From the IMG/VR virus record IMGVR_UViG_3300025120_000355, positions 1-29,167 of that record: a stretch of 29,167 nt of DNA. One strand, written 5' to 3'. Positions 3,881 to 24,533 of the stretch are shown here, in pieces. This DNA is from a virus. Position 1 is the first letter of the stretch; each line of letters begins with the position of its first letter. The notes under the pieces are model-generated. The model was not told the DNA's origin. It made no database searches and worked only from the letters and a program-made list of their open reading frames with translations. A program made the translations under genes and the position numbers.

Positions 3881-4321
3881 ATGACATTACTTGAACAAGC
3901 TCGTCAATTCAGAGAGATTTTTAATCAAGAAATTCTTGAAAATATCTCTAGATTTGGATTTATTAAAAAGGGTCTATGGGATATGCAGCTTAGATTGATA
4001 GCTGAAGAAGGTCAAGAGTTTATGACTGCTGCTGATGAGTGTTTTGCTGATCCTGAAAACACAAAACGTAGAGAAGAACTTGTCAAAGAACTATCAGATC
4101 TTGTCTTTGTCTGCTATCAATTTGCTGCTACTTATGGTATCGATTTAGATAAGGCTATGCAACTCGTTTATGAGTCTAATCTCAGTAAACTAGATGAACA
4201 AGGAAAGCCAATTTACAGAGAAGACGGAAAGGTCCTTAAAGGTCCATCGTATTTACCGCCCGATCTAGGCGACTGCCTACCTAAACCTCAACTTAATTAC
4301 TACGACACCAATGGAAAATAA
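3881..4321 (+). CDS. MazG-like nucleoside triphosphate pyrophosphohydrolase
   Basis: 146 aa, all-alpha NTP-PPase type. The metal-binding signature is visible: E42-E43-x2-E46 (EEGQEF), then E70-x2-D73 (KELSDLVF), followed by the typical phage ending GIDLDKAMQLVYESNLSKL. Family members hydrolyse (d)NTPs to monophosphates and pyrophosphate. Cyanophage MazG proteins have been proposed to alter host nucleotide pools, including (p)ppGpp, though that activity has been questioned. It sits between IF-1 and RNR, matching a role in nucleotide balance. Its last 11 bases overlap nrdA. Confidence 0.8.
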   Translation: MTLLEQARQFREIFNQEILENISRFGFIKKGLWDMQLRLIAEEGQEFMTAADECFADPENTKRREELVKELSDLVFVCYQFAATYGIDLDKAMQLVYESNLSKLDEQGKPIYREDGKVLKGPSYLPPDLGDCLPKPQLNYYDTNGK

Positions 4322-5735
4322 GCAAGTGATTGCACGCACTGGGCGTGTACAAAATTGGATTGATGATCCAGCTAGTCGCCTCCCTGTCAGCTGCACAGTT
4401 TTTGTAGTTGATGACAGTATGGAGGGACCCAATGGAATCGAAGCCAGCTGGCGCTACGTGAGTCACGGATTGCGCTTCGGGGCGGGGGTTGCTGTACATC
4501 TTTCCAAGATTCGTCCTGCCGGGCATGACAACGGTAAAGGGCTAGTAAGTTCTGGGCCTTGTTCATTCGGCAAAATTTATTCCTGCCTGAATGAGCAACT
4601 CCGTAGAGGTGGGGTCTACAAGAACGGAGCTGTGGTGCTTCACCTCGATTTAAACCATAAGGACATCCTTGAGTTCGTCAATATGCCTAGGCACGAAATA
4701 CCTTGGGCTAAGCGTTGCATTAACTTGTCTAACGTCATGTGGGACATGGCCAAGCCTGCAGTCAAAGATGCAATCCTCAAAGGTATTGCTCGTGGTGACA
4801 TCTGGCTAGCCAAGATCCGCAGTGATCAGCATGGTGAAAGGATTTATGCGAACGTATGCCTGGAGGTTTTTCTCAAATCACGTGGCACATGTCTTTTGGA
4901 GCATATAAACTTAGGTGCTTGTCGTCCTGAAGATATCCCGTCTGCATTTATTGCAGGAATGTCAGAGCTTATTGATCTGCATTCAAAAACTGGTGTCGAA
5001 AATACAGGTGAGTACCTAGCACAAGAAGAAGATCGGCAAGTGGGGCTAGGCATGCTTGGACTAGCAAACCTCTTAGCTCTTGAGAAAGTTACCTATGCTG
5101 AATTTGGTGAAGCTTTAACTGCTCACTTGTATCCTGAAGGCGATTATCTTACGACTCCAGAAGCACGTAAGATAGTTAAAGAACTTCAGTTAGGTGTTGA
5201 TTCAGCAGCAGCTATTGCAGAACGAGCCAATATGGATCGTTGCTTTGCTATTGCTCCAACTGCCTCTTGTAGTTACCGTTACAAAGACCGATCTGGCTAT
5301 ACCACGGCCCCCGAAATTGCACCGCCAATCGGACGCACAGTGGATAGAGACAGCTCTACATTTGGTGTTGAAACATTCGACTACGGAGAAGTTGAAACAG
5401 CTGACTCGGTTGGTTGGGACAACTACAAACGTGTAGTCGATGGCATTATGGAAATGCTAAAACGCACCGGCCTGGCTCATGGCTATAGTTTCAATTCATG
5501 GAGCGACGTTGTTACTTACGACGATGCATTCATTGAAGCTTGGCTAGATTCTCCACAAACTTCGCTGTACTACAGCTTGCAAGTTATGCAGAACACGCAG
5601 GCAAAAGATGATGCACTTGCTGCACTAGACGGTGACTTTGGAACTATGTTCGGATTCAACGACGGCGACGCCGATGATGACGGCATTATCAACATCTTTA
5701 ATGACCCAGCAGCCTGTGTCGGCTGCGCTGAATAA
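4311..5735 (+). CDS. nrdA: Ribonucleotide reductase, class I large (alpha) subunit, short cyanophage type
   Basis: 474 aa, far shorter than E. coli NrdA (761) but normal for cyanophage enzymes. The catalytic N-x-C-x-E motif is at N181-C183-E185. The redox cysteines are C28 and C204, and PTASCSYRYK forms the phosphate-binding loop. The C-terminal CxxC pair (C469, C472) is present. A tyrosine dyad (Y420-Y421) marks the radical path to a beta subunit, so the enzyme is class I although relatives were often labelled B12-dependent. The N-terminal ATP cone is absent, so ATP/dATP feedback is probably lost. It makes dNDPs for phage replication together with NrdB just downstream. Confidence 0.88.
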   Translation: MENKQVIARTGRVQNWIDDPASRLPVSCTVFVVDDSMEGPNGIEASWRYVSHGLRFGAGVAVHLSKIRPAGHDNGKGLVSSGPCSFGKIYSCLNEQLRRGGVYKNGAVVLHLDLNHKDILEFVNMPRHEIPWAKRCINLSNVMWDMAKPAVKDAILKGIARGDIWLAKIRSDQHGERIYANVCLEVFLKSRGTCLLEHINLGACRPEDIPSAFIAGMSELIDLHSKTGVENTGEYLAQEEDRQVGLGMLGLANLLALEKVTYAEFGEALTAHLYPEGDYLTTPEARKIVKELQLGVDSAAAIAERANMDRCFAIAPTASCSYRYKDRSGYTTAPEIAPPIGRTVDRDSSTFGVETFDYGEVETADSVGWDNYKRVVDGIMEMLKRTGLAHGYSFNSWSDVVTYDDAFIEAWLDSPQTSLYYSLQVMQNTQAKDDALAALDGDFGTMFGFNDGDADDDGIINIFNDPAACVGCAE

Positions 5736-5754
5736 ACCTTATACATTCAAACAA

Positions 5755-6486
5755 ATGAAAGCAGAAACTCCCTACATCCATCTACACGAGCGCAAGCGTA
5801 CCTGGACTCCAGTCCAAGTATCTGCTGGTCTACTCCTTGATGGTGGCGAAGAAGTTATTCAACGAGCATTAGCACTCCGTTGTCTTGAAATCCCCGTAGG
5901 TGACTTTATTAGCCAAGCTATGAAAGGTGACCTGCCTGATGTGAAGGGCTGCAAGGAGTTGCTTGCTTCCAATGTTGTTGATGAAGAAAACCATGATATT
6001 GCCCTTAATTTCGCAGCTAAAGCACATGGAGTCTCCCCTCAGTTTGAGAAGGAGGCTGCACACATTTGTAAGACCTGGCTTGAGCTGGACCGCCATCCTG
6101 TTCTCAAAGCTGTGGTACTTGAGAGATCAGTCTTTTTCGTCTTACTGCCCATCTTCCGACGGTTGGGAGATACAGGATTGCGTACGACAAGTGCCGATAT
6201 CTCACGAGATGAGCAGACCCATGTCGCAGCGAACACACTTGTCTGTGAATCGCTTGGTCTTAAGTCAGACAAAACGCTCAATAACCTTAGGAGAGCTACG
6301 GTTGCTTGGTGCCTTCAGTCCCTCAAAGGGGAAGCAGATAACAAGCATCTCTCCAGCAACTTCTGGCTTAGTAGTTCAGATTCTCTATATACAGTAGGCA
6401 AAGCTCAAGGGCTTGCCGACACTCGCGCCTCAAGAATGCCTGCGTTTTTTGAGACTGCCAACCAAAACTTACCTCAGTACGCTTAA
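5755..6486 (+). CDS. nrdB: Ribonucleotide reductase small (beta) subunit without the usual radical tyrosine
   Basis: 243 aa from ATG 5755; an in-frame ATG at 5701, overlapping nrdA, is possible and would add 18 residues. Ferritin-like helices carry the metal ligand set E45, E77-x2-H80, E123 and E153-x2-H156, all in expected spacing. The position of E. coli Tyr122 (seven residues after the E77-type ligand) is Leu84, so a stable tyrosyl radical of class Ia/Ib is not possible at that site. A metal-based or other radical, as in classes Ic/Id, is inferred. It forms the holoenzyme with the upstream alpha subunit. Confidence 0.82.
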   Translation: MKAETPYIHLHERKRTWTPVQVSAGLLLDGGEEVIQRALALRCLEIPVGDFISQAMKGDLPDVKGCKELLASNVVDEENHDIALNFAAKAHGVSPQFEKEAAHICKTWLELDRHPVLKAVVLERSVFFVLLPIFRRLGDTGLRTTSADISRDEQTHVAANTLVCESLGLKSDKTLNNLRRATVAWCLQSLKGEADNKHLSSNFWLSSSDSLYTVGKAQGLADTRASRMPAFFETANQNLPQYA

Positions 6487-9041: not shown

Positions 9042-9430
9042 TGACTAATTCGAATATGGAAAACTTGCCACCTGAAATGCAGGCACGCATTGCTCAGATC
9101 ATTGCAGGTGCACAAGCAACAGAACAACCAATCGTTCCTACTGAACCCGTTGTAGCCGATGCTCCGCAACGACCACTAGCAACAAGGCCCCTTCCAAAAG
9201 TACCTTCCTTGATGGATCACACCATTGCTCTGCGTCAAGAAGTTGCAGACATGAGGAACGAAGTTTCGTTTATGACTCAACGTGTCGAAGCAATTGGTCA
9301 GGTAACAGAGGCAGTAGGAAACGCAGTGGGGCAGTTGTATGCCATGTTTCAGGAGCAAACCACAGTTACAGATTCAGGCGCAACGTATTCGCAGAACTTT
9401 CAAGCGCAGGTAGAAGAGGGTGACTACTGA
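9041..9430 (+). CDS. Hypothetical coiled-coil protein with acidic tail (129 aa)
   Basis: Starts on the last base of the upstream stop (TAATG). A Pro-rich linker (residues 25-60) precedes a heptad-like helix (HTIALRQEVADMRNEVSFMTQRVEAIGQV and onwards), which suggests an oligomer. It ends VEEGDY, again an acidic aromatic tail. It overlaps the exonuclease by 11 bases. A partner or loader of the ssDNA-binding protein is possible but unproven. Confidence 0.6.
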   Translation: MTNSNMENLPPEMQARIAQIIAGAQATEQPIVPTEPVVADAPQRPLATRPLPKVPSLMDHTIALRQEVADMRNEVSFMTQRVEAIGQVTEAVGNAVGQLYAMFQEQTTVTDSGATYSQNFQAQVEEGDY

Positions 9431-15309: not shown

Positions 15310-15840
15310 ATGACAGCACCCAAAGGTGATCCCACTTATATAAAAAACAAGGAGCAACATTTTATTGATATTGCTAAAGCTGTTGGAGCTGCTTCAACAC
15401 ATCCATCATGTCCTGGTGGTTGTGTCATCGTTCGTGATCGAGAAATCATGGGTGACGGGCGCTCACTACTTACGGACTCTCAGGTAGAGATTGATCCTGT
15501 CTGCTATGCCATCGCTGGTGCATGCAAGCGAGGAACTCCTATGACCGGTGCAACTATCTACTCAACGCGATATCCCTTCTCTGCCTCTGTCTTTCAGGCA
15601 CACATCATGGGTATTCGCAAGATCGTAGTACTTGCATCTGATTGGGAGCCTTACTACAAGGATGAGTTCCGTAGAGCTGCACGACTAGCACGTGAATTAG
15701 ACATTGCTATTGAACCTCACTTTGAAGACGAAGACCCAAGGCTCTCAGTTAACAAACATGCCAATCGAAAAATTGATAAGAAATTATATCCAGACCCATC
15801 CACAGACAAACCAGCGGTAGAAACGATCTATGACAACTGA
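15310..15840 (+). CDS. dCMP deaminase-like pseudo-enzyme (zinc ligands lost)
   Basis: 176 aa from ATG 15310; the frame opens earlier but that part overlaps the divergent gene. The cytidine/dCMP deaminase fold is clear: an N-terminal helix, CVIVRDREIMGDG strand, then YAIAGACKRG and GATIYSTRYPF, AHIMGIRKIVVLASDW. The catalytic HAE is D62-P-V64 and the PCxxC site is P89-F-S-A-S93, so all zinc ligands and the general acid are gone. A structural, regulatory or nucleotide-sensing job is more likely than catalysis. The last 11 bases overlap the exonuclease gene. Confidence 0.7.
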   Translation: MTAPKGDPTYIKNKEQHFIDIAKAVGAASTHPSCPGGCVIVRDREIMGDGRSLLTDSQVEIDPVCYAIAGACKRGTPMTGATIYSTRYPFSASVFQAHIMGIRKIVVLASDWEPYYKDEFRRAARLARELDIAIEPHFEDEDPRLSVNKHANRKIDKKLYPDPSTDKPAVETIYDN

Positions 15841-16360
15841 ACTATTATTTGATATAGAAAGCACAGGATTACTCCGTGTCGGCTCGACGATTCACTGTAT
15901 TGTGATTCGCGATATCGCTAATGTAGAAGAAGCAGAAGTTTTTGACTGCAAACCAGAACGTGCAGTTATTCAAGGGGTTAAAGCCCTTGAGAGAGCTGAT
16001 GTTCTAATTGGCCACAATATTCTGGGATACGATGTACCACTTCTTAAAGAACAGTTTCCAGAGTTTGCACCAAGAGGTTCTTACCTTGACACACTTACTC
16101 TGTCTCGCTTGTATTATCCTCACATTAGTGAGCGAGATTATGAAAGAAGACCTATTGGAATGCCACAAAGGCTCTACGGCTCACATAGTCTAGAAGCATG
16201 GGGCTATAGATTAAAATGTTTCAAAGGAGACTTTGCTAAGAACACCAGTAATGACTGGTCTACTTACACTCCTGAGATGCTTGACTATTGCATCCAAGAT
16301 ACAAAAGTAACAGTAAAGCTATACGAACTATTGCAAAGGAGAATGAATGACTATTCCTAA
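15830..16360 (+). CDS. DNA polymerase A 3'-5' exonuclease domain as a separate gene
   Basis: 176 aa. The DEDDy motifs are complete: Exo I D8-I-E10, Exo II N63-ILGYD68, Exo III Y153-CIQD157. The lengths between motifs agree with T7 gp5's proofreading domain. In T7 this domain is fused to the polymerase; here it is a gene of its own with the polymerase 216 bases downstream. The two proteins presumably associate. Starts 11 bases inside the deaminase-like gene. Confidence 0.88.
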   Translation: MTTELLFDIESTGLLRVGSTIHCIVIRDIANVEEAEVFDCKPERAVIQGVKALERADVLIGHNILGYDVPLLKEQFPEFAPRGSYLDTLTLSRLYYPHISERDYERRPIGMPQRLYGSHSLEAWGYRLKCFKGDFAKNTSNDWSTYTPEMLDYCIQDTKVTVKLYELLQRRMNDYS

Positions 16361-16586
16361 GAAATCAGATCCACTTAACTCTGAAGAAATGACAGAGGCA
16401 GCGGAGATTTTCTTTCCGCTATTTAATATTGTGCACTCGCGAATGCCAGAAGGCGCTACTACAGAGGACTGCTTAAAGGTGATGGAGTCTGTAGCAAAGC
16501 TTGGTCATAAGAATCGAGCAGACAGGGCGGCTAAAGAGAAAGATCTCAACTTTGGATTCAACCAACTAAAAAATAATGATGCCTGA
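16347..16586 (+). CDS. Small helical protein between polymerase halves (79 aa)
   Basis: Overlaps the exonuclease end by 14 bases and the polymerase start by 11. Helical (NSEEMTEAAEIFFPLFNIV), with a conserved-looking EDCLKVMESVAKLGHKNRADR and a short end FGFNQLKNND. Its place between two parts of one enzyme suggests a bridging or stabilising subunit. That is inference; no known domain. Confidence 0.65.
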   Translation: MTIPKKSDPLNSEEMTEAAEIFFPLFNIVHSRMPEGATTEDCLKVMESVAKLGHKNRADRAAKEKDLNFGFNQLKNNDA

Positions 16587-17880
16587 TTACGTTGCTCTTG
16601 AAATGCGGATGGCCGAGCTTATGGCTCAGCAGGAAGCAAGTGGATTTAGATTTGATACTGAAGCTGCTGTACGTGTTCGCACGAAACTGCAGCAGGAGTT
16701 TGATGATCTAACAAATAAAATAAAATCAATTTATCTGTACGTACCTGGTAAAGTCTTCACTCCAAAGCGTGCTGATAAAAAGAAAGGCTATGTAGCAGGT
16801 GCTTCTATGACGCGCTTGACTGACTTCAACCCTACGTCACGCCTAAACATTGTTTGGGCTTTGCAAACATTCCGTGGTGCACGCTTCACTAAGGTTACTG
16901 AAACTGGTAAACCTAAGGTTGATGAAGCAACTCTCTCTGAAGTGAGAGACATTGCATTGTCTGCTGGTAACCAGAAACTGCATGACGAATGTGAGATGTT
17001 TATCCGCTTGTTGACATTACAGAAGTGGCTTGGTCAGCTATCCGAGGGAACCAACTCTTGGTTCAACTCTATTGAGGGGGATAGCTGTATCCATCACAGC
17101 TGCATTCTTGCTACTCAAACATCTAGAAATGTGCATCGGGGTCCCAACTTGGGGCAAGTGGTTAGTGCACCGTGGGCACGTGAACTATTTGTACCTCACC
17201 CTGGTCATGTAATGGTCGGAGCTGACCTTGAGGGCCTGGAATTGCGCCTGTTAGGGCACTACTTGGCCGCCTTCGATTCGGGGGCCTTTGCTGAGGTCGT
17301 GGTTAACGGTGACATCCATCAGCAAAATGCAGATCGTGTGGGATGCACTAGATCTGAGGTCAAAAGTTTAGTTTATGGGTTTATTTATGGAGCTGGAGAT
17401 GTTAAATTAGCTCATATATTACAGCCTGCTTTGTCAGATGCTCAAAAGAAATCGCTTGGTGCTGACTTACGACGCAAATTTCTCGACGCTATTCCTGGAT
17501 TGGAGCCACTAATCGATGCTATTAAACTCAAAGTTCGCTCAACTGGTCGTCTTAGGGGCCTTGATGGGCGTCCTATATTCTGTCGTGCTGAGCACAGTAG
17601 TCCCAACTTCTTACTTCAGTCTGCCGGAGCAATCATCTCCAAGCGATGGGTGGTGATTGGTCAGCAGATGATTGATAGTGCAGGACTTACCTATGACCGT
17701 GACTACACACGATGTGCTTACGTACATGATGAAGTTCAGATGTCTGTAGTACCTGCTGAGGTTGATCGTATGAAACGCTTACTAGAGGCAGCAGCACCTG
17801 AGGCTGGTAAGTACTACAACCTGCGAGTTCCTATGGCTGCATCTGCTGATCATGGTGAGAACTGGGCGGCTACTCACTAA
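16576..17880 (+). CDS. Family A DNA polymerase, polymerase domain only
   Basis: 434 aa with palm, fingers and thumb but no exonuclease. Motif A is VGADLEGLELR (D217, E222); the O-helix is R259-x3-K263-SLVYGFIYGAG; motif C is H384-D385-E386; TGRLRGLDGR (323-331) is the T-x2-G-R-x-R motif. The residue equivalent to E. coli Phe762 is Tyr267, as in T7 polymerase. It replicates the phage genome with the separate exonuclease (15830), the primase-helicase (10129) and the SSBs. Confidence 0.92.
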   Translation: MMPDYVALEMRMAELMAQQEASGFRFDTEAAVRVRTKLQQEFDDLTNKIKSIYLYVPGKVFTPKRADKKKGYVAGASMTRLTDFNPTSRLNIVWALQTFRGARFTKVTETGKPKVDEATLSEVRDIALSAGNQKLHDECEMFIRLLTLQKWLGQLSEGTNSWFNSIEGDSCIHHSCILATQTSRNVHRGPNLGQVVSAPWARELFVPHPGHVMVGADLEGLELRLLGHYLAAFDSGAFAEVVVNGDIHQQNADRVGCTRSEVKSLVYGFIYGAGDVKLAHILQPALSDAQKKSLGADLRRKFLDAIPGLEPLIDAIKLKVRSTGRLRGLDGRPIFCRAEHSSPNFLLQSAGAIISKRWVVIGQQMIDSAGLTYDRDYTRCAYVHDEVQMSVVPAEVDRMKRLLEAAAPEAGKYYNLRVPMAASADHGENWAATH

Positions 17881-21438: not shown

Positions 21439-21762
21439 TTAACCAATCATAAGACCATCATCATCTAGATCGTCATTCTCATATTCTTGATCGTCGATAC
21501 TAGTTGGCAAATCATCGTCTGCCCTTAGTAGTAGCTCCATAAAAGTTTCTTCACTAATGATCTCAGGTAAACCAGCCTGATGTTCATCAATTTTGAACAT
21601 GATCCCTGCATTAAGTAGTGTGTTTTGTGTTCCGTTCTTGAGCTCCATGCGGGACTTAAGCAGACGCAAGGCAGTCTTTTCCAAGGCTGGGCGGCTCATT
21701 CGGGATACTTCGTATCGAGCTCTGGTTAAGGCAAATCGTTGTTCGATTGTTAGCGCTTCCAT
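21439..21762 (-). CDS. NblA-like phycobilisome degradation protein with extended C-terminus
   Basis: 107 aa from ATG 21762 (GAGGAAG site 10-16 bases before). Residues 4-52 line up with NblA: LT-x-EQ-x-F-x-L near the start, a V-x2-MS step, then a second helix with L-x6-M-x-LK and a final LL. Host and phage NblA direct phycobilisome proteins to Clp protease and are about 55-65 aa. Here 50 extra residues follow, ending in a strongly acidic tail. The match is by eye without a search. If right, the phage dismantles host light-harvesting antennae to gain amino acids or limit light input. It overlaps the upstream HNH frame by 107 bases. Confidence 0.55.
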   Translation of the reverse strand: MEALTIEQRFALTRARYEVSRMSRPALEKTALRLLKSRMELKNGTQNTLLNAGIMFKIDEHQAGLPEIISEETFMELLLRADDDLPTSIDDQEYENDDLDDDGLMIG

Positions 21763-22108
21763 CACCTAATTCTTCCTCGATAAAACGTTTGTTTGAGATC
21801 CATTCTTCAATTAATTCTTTTGCAGTTTCATTGTAAAATGACTGCCTTTGAAACCATACTAACCAAGGTTCACTTCCTTTGGAGTGATTACACTCAAGGC
21901 AGCAAGGCAGAAGATTGCCTCTTCGGCCATCTCCACCTTTGGATTTTGGTTTTATATGGTCCAGTGTGGTTGCTCGATTGCATCTGCAGTATCCGCAGAG
22001 GCCACCCCATCCATACTTAATTGACTTTTTAAATCTGCGCTTGGCACTCTGCTTAGATAAGCAAGTGAGGTCGAACATTAAGTCCTTCCAGTCTTCAGCA
22101 ATTCCCAT
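21656..22108 (-). CDS. HNH endonuclease (free-standing)
   Basis: 150 aa. A canonical HNH core: C38-GY-C41, TLDHIKP (D50, H51), NLLPCCLECNHSKG (N65, C70, C73, N74, H75). Such genes cut DNA and are often mobile in phages. The C-terminal 35 residues are encoded in the region that also codes the start of the NblA-like protein in another frame, so its tail may be accidental. It is between two small-protein genes in the operon, a typical landing place for a homing-type nuclease. Confidence 0.8.
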   Translation of the reverse strand: MGIAEDWKDLMFDLTCLSKQSAKRRFKKSIKYGWGGLCGYCRCNRATTLDHIKPKSKGGDGRRGNLLPCCLECNHSKGSEPWLVWFQRQSFYNETAKELIEEWISNKRFIEEELGDGSANNRTTICLNQSSIRSIPNEPPSLGKDCLASA

Positions 22109-22162: not shown

Positions 22163-22402
22163 TTATGTAGTGCGATTAATGGTAACCAACATATCCATCT
22201 TGTCTTCGATACGAATTAAATGATCTTCCATCCTTCCCATGGCAGCTGTAAATTCCTGCTTTGATGTATAGGACTCAGCCAGTTTCAACTCCAATCGATC
22301 TACCCTTGTATCTAAAGTTGTAACTCGATTGCCTATTTTGTTGAAGAGCACGGCTGTTCCAGTAACAATAGCAATAACGACAGGAATGGCGGTTTCAATC
22401 AT
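22163..22402 (-). CDS. Small membrane/coiled-coil protein, holin-like
   Basis: 79 aa from ATG 22402 (the frame extends to 22633 but that part overlaps another coding frame). One membrane segment (TAIPVVIAIVTGTAVLF) is followed by a long amphipathic helix (NRVTTLDTRVDRLELKLAE) ending near EDKMDMLV. This layout is seen in phage lysis or superinfection proteins. The start overlaps the end of the frameshift ORF (stop 22395-22397), so the two are translationally linked. Confidence 0.65.
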   Translation of the reverse strand: MIETAIPVVIAIVTGTAVLFNKIGNRVTTLDTRVDRLELKLAESYTSKQEFTAAMGRMEDHLIRIEDKMDMLVTINRTT

Positions 22403-22652
22403 CTCTTTGTAGATGTTTATAACGGGTTGAAATCGACCATCCGTCTTTGCCAAACGTCCCTTTTTCTGAGATTTCCCACGTAGGTGTCTCAGCTGGCTGC
22501 GTTTGAGTCCACTCTTCCTCAGCCTGGTCAAGCTTATTAGTAAGGGTGGCGTAGAACTTCTTTTTTTGAATGTAGCGTTGAGCTCGTTCGAAGTCGGAAC
22601 GAGTGTCAAATTGCCAGAGCCATTTCCCATCATCGGGAATATTGCTTAACTC
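22395..22652 (-). CDS. -1 frame extension lacking any start codon, fused to the membrane protein by frameshift
   Basis: Reading the minus strand in the -1 frame from G22652 gives 85 sense codons to TGA at 22397-22395. This frame is open further upstream too, back to a TGA near 22751, but contains no ATG, GTG or TTG anywhere. The sequence is protein-like: ELSNIPDDGKWLWQFDTRSD, a helical FERAQRYIQKKKFYATL, then EEEWTQTQ and an end ISTRYKHLQRDD. Fused to the first 45 residues it makes a 130-aa protein with a membrane N-terminus and soluble C-terminus, the layout of an inner-membrane spanin, though that is a guess. Confidence 0.6.
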   Translation of the reverse strand, partial: ELSNIPDDGKWLWQFDTRSDFERAQRYIQKKKFYATLTNKLDQAEEEWTQTQPAETPTWEISEKGTFGKDGWSISTRYKHLQRDD

Positions 22653-22786
22653 TTTTTTGGCTTTATTGAATTCAATGCCGAAAGCACAAGCTGGATCATG
22701 CTGTTTGACTTGAGTGGAGTCATCGCAATGATTTCACTTGCAGCAGCAAGTACGATCCAGAAGATAGCTGATTCTAAGATAGCCAT
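22646..22786 (-). CDS. Small membrane protein, zero-frame product of the frameshift gene
   Basis: 46 aa from ATG 22786. It has a membrane segment (AIFWIVLAAASEIIA), a polar turn (MTPLKSNSM), a second hydrophobic stretch (IQLVLSALN), and a basic end SIKPKKS. Just before its stop codon the codons CCA-AAA-AAG contain the slippery heptamer A-AAA-AAG (see separate entries). Its unshifted form would be a short membrane peptide. No function assigned; holin or spanin anchor is the simplest guess. Confidence 0.7.
   Translation of the reverse strand: MAILESAIFWIVLAAASEIIAMTPLKSNSMIQLVLSALNSIKPKKS
22652..22658 (-). other. Slippery heptamer A-AAA-AAG for -1 ribosomal frameshifting
   Basis: On the minus strand the zero frame reads CCA-AAA-AAG-AGT-TAA, so the heptamer A AAA AAG is in correct phase, as in E. 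coli dnaX. The stop lies one codon after it. Twelve bases downstream a hairpin TTCCC-GATGAT-GGGAA (22639-22624) could stimulate the shift; its 5-bp stem is modest. Confidence 0.6.
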
Positions 22787-23299: not shown

Positions 23300-23384
23300 G
23301 GAAGGGTGGCAGAGTGGTCGATCGCGGTGGTCTTGAAAACCACTGACCTGCAAGGGTCCAGGGGTTCGAATCCCCTCCCTTCCG
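23300..23384 (+). tRNA. tRNA-Ser (anticodon UGA)
   Basis: Complete cloverleaf. Acceptor GGAAGGG (23300-23306) pairs with CCCTTCC (23377-23383), discriminator G at 23384. The anticodon stem GTGGT/ACCAC has loop CTTGAAA with TGA at 23334-23336. A long variable arm, typical of Ser, and T arm AGGGG-TTCGAAT-CCCCT follow. CCA is not encoded. The 3' end directly abuts the integrase stop codon at 23385 on the other strand. Confidence 0.93.
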
Positions 23385-24533
23385 TTACAAGCTTCGTCTG
23401 GATTGGATCTCCCTAACGGCACGCTCCACGTCGTCTGCCTGCATCCAATGGTGATAAGTCTTTGTGTGAACGGCGTGGTCATGTCCCATGCATTTGGCTG
23501 CAAGCACTGAGTTTCCACTTAATTCCACAATGGCATTGATCGCCCAAGAGTGCCTTAAGTCATACAACGTGTGTTCTGAAAAATAAGTCTGCAACCAACG
23601 TGCTGTTTGGTTGACGTAGTACTTACATTTCTCCGGGTCATAGTCAGCTTTGTCGTAGAAGTTATATGGAAGTTCTGGCTGCTCAAGCATTTCAAACTGA
23701 TCAATCCACTGCGGGTGTAATGACATCACAGTGCGACGTACAAGGTTCCCGTTCTTACGTTTAATCGTCCAGCACAAGCCACTGCTGCCATCACCTTTGA
23801 GTTGTAAACCAAATGCCTCACTTGGTCTGCATCCATAAATGATCAAGGCGCAGCACACCCACCCCTGCCACATCACTCCACTACCTTTCTTGCTGACTGC
23901 CCACCGCAGCGTTTGCAGCATTTTTTCTGCGGTCTCTAGATCAGGCGGATTGATCTCACGTTTAGGTATAGGCGGTTCACGCAAGTCATCAATTGGCACA
24001 ACCCCTGGTATGTCCAGAAGCCTGGCGACACGTTTGTAGGTTTTACATGCTTCATAACGAGCACGACTATGCATTGGTGTGCTCAAAATTCCTTCAACTG
24101 CCAACTCGATTGTGAATTCAGCAGAGTTTGGTAGCCGCCTCATCTCATTCTCCAGTCGCTTCCAACTACTGAGCGTTGATTTGTTCTCCCGTTTTTTACG
24201 AAAGAAACTCTGACGTAAAACATCTGTCGCATCAGCAACGGTGATGATGTCCTTCACCTCAAGGTCAGCAATTTCCCAAGGCAGCGGGCGCATGAGTGTG
24301 CCGATGTCTTTGTGGCGCAGGTCAGCTGTCTGAATCCTGTCGATGGCTGTATTGACTGACGACCCATCAGCAGGCAATCCCAAGGAAACTCGTTGCTGTT
24401 TTCTTGGTCCTCGATCGATCGAACAGCTGGTTCGCCAATACCAACGGTCGCTGTGGTCTTCTAATGACCCTCGTATGCCACGGAGCTTGAGTGTTTTATT
24501 GGCATCCGCTAGAACCTCAGTACTGACCTGCAT
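23385..24533 (-). CDS. int: Tyrosine-family site-specific integrase
   Basis: 382 aa. The N-terminal 170 residues hold the arm- and core-binding parts; the catalytic domain has Arg in YGCRPSEAF, the LYDLRHSWA box (Tyr in the first position where His is common), MGHDH, and the nucleophile Tyr360 in TKTYHHW. The gene lies tail-to-tail with tRNA-Ser without a spacer, and its start codon is seven bases from the first of several TTTGACTA repeats that look like arm sites. It should insert and, with the excisionase-like protein, excise the phage genome. Confidence 0.93.
   Translation of the reverse strand: MQVSTEVLADANKTLKLRGIRGSLEDHSDRWYWRTSCSIDRGPRKQQRVSLGLPADGSSVNTAIDRIQTADLRHKDIGTLMRPLPWEIADLEVKDIITVADATDVLRQSFFRKKRENKSTLSSWKRLENEMRRLPNSAEFTIELAVEGILSTPMHSRARYEACKTYKRVARLLDIPGVVPIDDLREPPIPKREINPPDLETAEKMLQTLRWAVSKKGSGVMWQGWVCCALIIYGCRPSEAFGLQLKGDGSSGLCWTIKRKNGNLVRRTVMSLHPQWIDQFEMLEQPELPYNFYDKADYDPEKCKYYVNQTARWLQTYFSEHTLYDLRHSWAINAIVELSGNSVLAAKCMGHDHAVHTKTYHHWMQADDVERAVREIQSRRSL

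Follow-up and report, generated by a model that had tools for sequence, protein, structure and literature searches.

Positions 22,163 to 22,786 of the 29,167-nucleotide viral sequence analyzed here (IMG/VR record IMGVR_UViG_3300025120_000355; this whole stretch is referred to below as the window) raise the question of how a minus-strand reading frame without any start codon could come to be translated. A preliminary description, made from the sequence alone, had pointed to an open frame of more than 110 codons ending at 22395 and containing no ATG, GTG or TTG, and had proposed that a −1 slip at an in-phase A_AAA_AAG close to the end of an upstream 46-aa membrane gene would lead ribosomes directly into it, yielding a fusion of 130 aa. 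A recount gave 112 codons from stop to stop, the heptamer was located at 22658-22652, one codon ahead of the stop of the 46-aa gene, and the predicted fusion was recomputed as 45 + 85 aa, so that these elements of the proposal stand. We conclude, with a probability of roughly 0.85, that a small phage membrane gene, probably related to lysis, here contains a genuine programmed −1 ribosomal frameshift, the slippage itself being inferred from sequence and conservation.

The 0-frame ORF (22786-22646, minus strand) translates as MAILESAIFWIVLAAASEIIAMTPLKSNSMIQLVLSALNSIKPKKS followed by the stop, with a single hydrophobic segment leading into a basic amphipathic stretch, and its 3′ end reads CCA AAA AAG AGT TAA. 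A slip would join its membrane anchor, through the predicted junction PKK-ELSN, to a domain of ~85 aa, which corresponds to the conserved part of the −1 ORF (ELSNIP...LQRDD, 85 aa, 22652-22398). No start-less stretch in the window is longer than the −1 ORF (22733-22395), and mononucleotide shuffles of the window gave an expectation of only 0.005 start-less stretches of at least 110 codons per window. Two further start-less stop-to-stop stretches, at 9145-9423 (plus strand, 92 codons) and 5202-5456 (minus strand, 84 codons), both overlap other ORFs. A_AAA_AAG occurs 16 times in the window on both strands, and the heptamer alone is therefore little proof; the weight is carried by phase and position and most of all by conservation. 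The −1 ORF had also been described as fitting exactly between its neighbors, which is not the case: it overlaps the membrane ORF at its 5′ side and, at its 3′ side, its TGA stop overlaps the ATG of the next gene (22402-22400) in ATGATTGA at 22402-22395. The features of the locus are collected in Table 1.

Table 1 Features of the frameshift locus and the gene following it, in window coordinates
Feature	Position	Strand	Description
0-frame ORF	22646..22786	−	46-aa membrane peptide; PHROG 22542, function unknown (phrog_22542, E 2e-18)
Slippery heptamer A_AAA_AAG	22652..22658	−	In phase; 1 codon (AGT) ahead of the 0-frame stop
0-frame stop TAA	22646..22648	−	1 codon past the slip site
Possible weak hairpin TTCCC-GATGAT-GGGAA	22612..22645	−	Downstream of the slip site; read from the sequence
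−1 ORF	22395..22733	−	112 codons stop to stop; zero ATG/GTG/TTG
Predicted transframe protein	22395..22786	−	130 aa (45 + 85), MAIL...PKK/ELSN...QRDD; from sequence and conservation
Next gene	22163..22402	−	~79-aa membrane and coiled-coil protein, XhlA-like; phrog_12220

In the window, the frameshift gene lies between an integrase gene and genes for HNH and NblA-like proteins. No endolysin gene adjoins it; the next gene is the XhlA-like one, whose match to Pfam PF10779 falls below the cut-off (E 0.06; 13.9 bits vs 34.7). The NblA-like gene is a 108-aa ORF at 21442-21765 (minus strand) with a weak match to the phycobilisome degradation protein NblA (PF04485, E 0.003, below the cut-off), which would fit a cyanobacterial host, and one relative (L193) carries a similar gene after its HNH gene. 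A tRNA-Ser-like stretch at 23301-23387 adjoins the integrase gene at 23385-24533 and suggests that the phage is temperate, with a tRNA as its attachment site; a DNA-level search of the region in phage records returned tRNA-Ser only. Genes for ribonucleotide reductase alpha and beta and for a DNA polymerase are found at 4311-6486 and 15830-17880, the exonuclease and polymerase parts of the latter being encoded by separate ORFs.

Whether related phages keep the heptamer or carry a fused gene was the check put forward with the original proposal. Each profile scan of IMG/VR brought up more than 500 relatives, of which 80 were kept, while a genome collection yielded five relatives only, on MAG contigs resembling viral pieces. 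Pooled, at least 224 non-redundant frameshift-type loci, forming 76 clusters at 80% identity, were obtained from IMG/VR, named cyanophages and a few MAG contigs, and all 224 combine a membrane ORF, an in-phase slip heptamer near its stop and a −1 ORF. These loci were chosen by their heptamer, which is A_AAA_AAG in 208, G_GGA_AAG in 11, A_AAA_AAC in four and A_AAA_AAA in one; the stop follows within 0–1 codon in 222 of them and within 2–3 codons in the other two. The relatives include phages of Synechococcus, in which the membrane ORF was located by tblastn of phage records before their DNA was read: S-CBS1, S-CBS3, KBS-S-2A, S-B28, 7B11-B and WH11-B carry A_AAA_AAG, the stop and a −1 ORF, and S-EIVl has the same layout with G_GGA_AAG.

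The result holds when the sampling is varied. Among the nearest relatives (close or fairly close IMG/VR sequences found by searching with the −1 domain and also possessing the membrane ORF), 19 of 19 keep CCA AAA AA(G/A), a stop no more than one codon later and the domain in the −1 frame. A canonical heptamer is present in 130 of 142 non-identical family members examined, and 128 of these 130 have a −1 extension of 42–110 codons, the exceptions being a degenerate copy and a contig end. Eleven of the 12 members without the heptamer lack the domain too; the twelfth (L175) has the domain with A_AAG_AAG. Free of any heptamer-based choice is a set of 134 non-identical loci found with the −1 domain alone as query, about 132 of which have an in-phase heptamer: A_AAA_AAG, A_AAA_AAA or G_GGA_AAG in 130 and A_AAA_AAC in L326 and L328, with a weaker G_AAA_AAG run in L202 and a contig end cutting L347. 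The membrane part and the domain were found in one frame in none of these 134 loci, so the heptamer, and not a fusion, is what related phages keep. In other phage contigs (L021-L030), a start-bearing small gene ends in the same tail motif, EKGTFGKDGWSIS, sometimes right after a membrane-type ORF, and this layout is an analogous arrangement without a frameshift.

The slip site is also conserved beyond what the amino acids require. The residue encoded by the codon that supplies the first slip base varies widely (Gly, Ala, Pro, Glu, Lys, Ser, Val, Gln, Thr, Leu or Arg), but this codon, ahead of KK, always ends in the required base. From codon usage, the probability of this across 68 clusters would be ~10^-60 if the clusters were independent. 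That figure is overstated, because the clusters share ancestry and the loci were chosen by heptamer, but its direction is plain. Evidence for stimulators is less clear. Folding of the 60 nt from +5 past the heptamer gave a mean z of −1.48 against dinucleotide shuffles, with 22 of 51 sequences below −1.5, compared with a mean of −0.35 and 9 of 51 for upstream sequence. The downstream structures differ between groups, the signal being moderate and mixed, and at the position of the possible hairpin of the window the close relative L002 folds with a z of only −0.6. A Shine–Dalgarno (SD)-like stimulator upstream of the slip site was essentially absent (1 match in 51). Together, these observations indicate that slip efficiency may be low.

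The −1 ORF evolves as a protein under purifying selection. In 35 non-overlapping pairs of relatives with 72–95% nucleotide identity, dN/dS of the −1 frame was below 1 in every pair (median 0.16), and substitutions at codon positions 1, 2 and 3 numbered 265, 176 and 619. A shifted-frame control over all 199 pairs (uncorrected ratio) gave medians of 1.28 and 0.61. The closest pair of the window itself is weak in this respect, with a dN/dS of only 0.68 from 15 differences; it is the relatives that bear out the earlier impression of a protein-like frame. Searches of the C-terminal domain against Pfam and PDB sequences returned nothing convincing, its AlphaFold model is poor (a helical hairpin and strands, pLDDT 73, pTM 0.36), and Foldseek comparison of this model with viral structures yielded no hit better than E 0.69. 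The charges flanking the hydrophobic segment average −0.98 before and +4.17 after it, in the same sense in 215 of 215 relatives. From this bias an N-out/C-in topology is predicted, which would place the extra domain in the cytoplasm; this is a prediction only. Identity as an i-spanin (Rz) was considered and rejected, since it needs a periplasmic C-terminal domain and the charge bias predicts C-in in all 215.

A role in lysis is likely from the neighbors of the gene in its relatives. The cyanosiphoviruses among these relatives have the XhlA-like gene first, then the membrane ORF with the frameshift and then the endolysin. An ORF of at least 150 aa, the size of an endolysin, starts at the −1 stop in 136 loci, and the downstream start overlaps the −1 stop in 165 of the 183 loci that have a downstream ORF; Pfam searches of example downstream ORFs identified phage lysozyme, glucosaminidase, C39 and M15 peptidase domains. 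Autographivirus relatives have the gene flanked by the tail fibre and small terminase genes, which is the position of T7 holin gene 17.5 (gp17.5). This context supports the earlier suggestion of a membrane or lysis-type gene, although the pairing of a small membrane protein with an adjacent endolysin is seen in the relatives (the 136 loci) and not in the window. A tail assembly chaperone of the G/GT type was rejected: the neighbors are endolysin, XhlA-like, terminase or HNH genes rather than a tape-measure gene, and there is no PHROG tail match. Overall, the locus has the sequence features of programmed −1 frameshifting, lacks those of a tail chaperone gene and has part of those of a holin gene.

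The endolysins 3′ of the frameshift gene in seven relatives (L004, L033, L037, L038, L098, L100, L104) share an N-terminal module of ~55 aa (IRLLDLFRYYKGLPHQxAAIxELE...), joined to lysozyme, C39, glucosaminidase and C39, or lysozyme and M15 catalytic partners. The shared module gave rise to the idea that the C-terminal domain serves for endolysin docking, which was discarded because the module is also present in L110, where the domain is missing; the domain is thus not needed to explain the module. In L110, L111, L113 and L116, which have lost both the heptamer and the −1 domain, the endolysin ATG overlaps the 0-frame stop (AAATGATC), an overlap that keeps the two genes coupled.

Given the lysis context in relatives and the predicted C-in topology, we favor a two-isoform holin-type gene whose long form is made by frameshifting. 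Most ribosomes would stop one codon past the heptamer and release the short membrane peptide, while a minority would re-pair in tandem one base further back at A_AAA_AAG and continue through the start-less ORF, producing a membrane-anchored protein with the additional ~85-aa domain, predicted to be cytoplasmic. The two isoforms would act as a holin-type component, and their ratio, itself inferred, would help to set lysis in the manner of dual-product holins. This functional step is an inference and the holin-type role, taken by itself, remains tentative, a possibility rather than an expectation. As a probable second effect, slipping ribosomes would terminate where the next lysis gene begins and thereby couple its translation.

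The frameshift could instead serve mainly to deliver ribosomes to that next gene, with the slip rate metering the endolysin or XhlA-like protein and the transframe product being secondary. The geometry of the 136 loci is suited to this: the start of the ORF of at least 150 aa precedes the end of the −1 stop by a median of 26 nt but lies a median of 220 nt (minimum 156) past the 0-frame stop; in the domain-less L110-L116 loci the endolysin ATG overlaps the 0-frame stop instead, and a frameshift/termination route to the lysis gene has long been discussed for MS2 (PMC10885494). An SD-like motif precedes only 13 of the 136 downstream starts, but such motifs are scarce in the family generally (11 of 215 membrane-peptide starts), so their scarcity at downstream starts is no pointer to coupling. 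The product of the −1 ORF is itself under clear purifying selection, and in the autographivirus 7B11-B (L031) the next gene lies 15 nt beyond the −1 stop and the domain is still kept. Ribosome delivery as the main purpose is accordingly unlikely, though not to be disregarded, and it is not exclusive with the two-isoform explanation.

It is also conceivable that the frameshift is real and the gene serves some other membrane function, travelling in late operons. No family model assigns it a function (PHROGs, “unknown function”), and the gene order of the window, with its integrase, HNH and NblA-like genes, leaves room for this. The relatives, however, have the gene next to those for endolysin and XhlA-like proteins or in the position of the T7 holin, and we consider a role outside lysis rather improbable.

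The remaining alternatives concern the way in which the second frame is reached. Transcriptional rather than ribosomal slippage on the A run is suggested by the six A residues of the common heptamer and by the longer runs at some loci (L065). Six A residues are nevertheless short for polymerase slippage, eight of the 76 clusters have the same arrangement with G_GGA_AAG, which contains no such run, and the strict codon phase suits tRNA re-pairing, making this explanation very hard to sustain. Independent initiation of the −1 ORF, at a rare start codon or by re-initiation past the 0-frame stop with the heptamer being incidental, would agree with the internal starts chosen by the annotators of S-CBS1, S-CBS3 and S-EIVl. 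However, the ORF contains no ATG, GTG or TTG at all in the window or in 20 of 224 relatives, and the others have no start position in common; ATG is missing up to the tenth codon beyond the junction in 218 of 224 loci, and ATG, GTG and TTG are all missing there in 172. Conservation of the protein extends all the way to the junction (KGLIPxDG..., KALIxFG...), and the heptamer stays while the flanking codons change, so that independent initiation is scarcely credible. A sequencing error, assembly indel or decaying gene, for which the homopolymer at the junction might speak, can be set aside, given the same layout in more than 200 non-redundant contigs and in isolate genomes, the strong purifying selection and the absence of fused relatives.

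Kept in more than 200 related viral sequences, the layout has the look of a genuine control device that has not been described so far; no description of frameshifting in this gene family was found in the open-licence papers searched. In tailed phages, tail chaperones are the best-known case of conserved −1 frameshifting, and the present family is apparently a second widely conserved one, in another functional module, in phages of Synechococcus and relatives. The most far-reaching version of the two-isoform reading is that a holin-type peptide and a holin-anchored cytoplasmic regulator both come from one gene, which hands its slipped ribosomes to the endolysin start, forming a lysis clock in cyanophages. 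We regard this as speculative and doubtful at present; if it were true, one slip rate would set both the holin isoform ratio and the endolysin supply, and the family would be an undescribed, widely conserved class of phage −1 frameshift. The finding also bears on annotation. The −1 ORF is unannotated in KBS-S-2A, S-B28, 7B11-B and WH11-B and has been given internal starts in GenBank in S-CBS1 (L033), S-CBS3 (L037) and S-EIVl (L032), while the annotation of S-B28 and S-EIVl omits the membrane ORF as well, so many annotated genomes would lack a real protein. The gene further offers a testable handle on lysis timing in cyanophages, about whose lysis genes little is known, and a clean natural system in which to study A_AAA_AAG slippage beside a stop codon.

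Among known systems, lambda gpG/gpGT resembles what is inferred for the cyanophage gene: ribosomes slipping to −1 shortly before a short gene ends give a minority, C-terminally extended protein. The lambda slip heptamer is G_GGA_AAG, which is also found among the heptamers of the cyanophage family. Likewise, the frameshift arrangement of tail assembly chaperones is conserved across diverged dsDNA phages (PMC5009743), as the cyanophage arrangement is. The cyanophage gene differs in its mostly A_AAA_AAG slip sites, its membrane-anchored predicted product and its lysis neighborhood without tape-measure context, and no sequence relation to G/GT was found. In dnaX of E. coli, slippage leads to a shorter product and is stimulated by an SD sequence and a hairpin. 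The dnaX heptamer is the same A_AAA_AAG, but the cyanophage slip would yield a longer product, with no SD seen and variable hairpins. This heptamer is described as far more shift-prone in E. coli than the other heptamers compared (PMC5009743).

The lysis systems of PBSX and SPP1 combine an XhlA-type protein with a small holin, and co-production of the two is required for lysis (PMC6316719). PBSX XhlA/XhlB and SPP1 gp24.1/gp26 thus offer a parallel to the cyanophage set of a coiled-coil and transmembrane XhlA-like gene, a small membrane protein and an endolysin. Their holins, XhlB and gp26, have two transmembrane segments and no frameshift, the isoforms of the SPP1 holin arising from dual starts, and the match of the neighbor in the window to the XhlA family of Pfam is only weak and sub-threshold. 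Dual-product holins such as lambda S105/S107 derive two membrane products from one gene, as is proposed for the cyanophage gene, whose products would, by inference, be expected to set lysis timing. The two lambda products arise from a dual start at the N-terminus, whereas the cyanophage −1 frameshift would add a C-terminal domain instead. MS2 is an RNA phage with a separate lysis protein and no known conserved X_XXY_YYZ site, and in these respects stands apart from the cyanophage gene. What the two would have in common is a frameshift or termination event linked to the expression of a lysis gene, as discussed for MS2 (PMC10885494).
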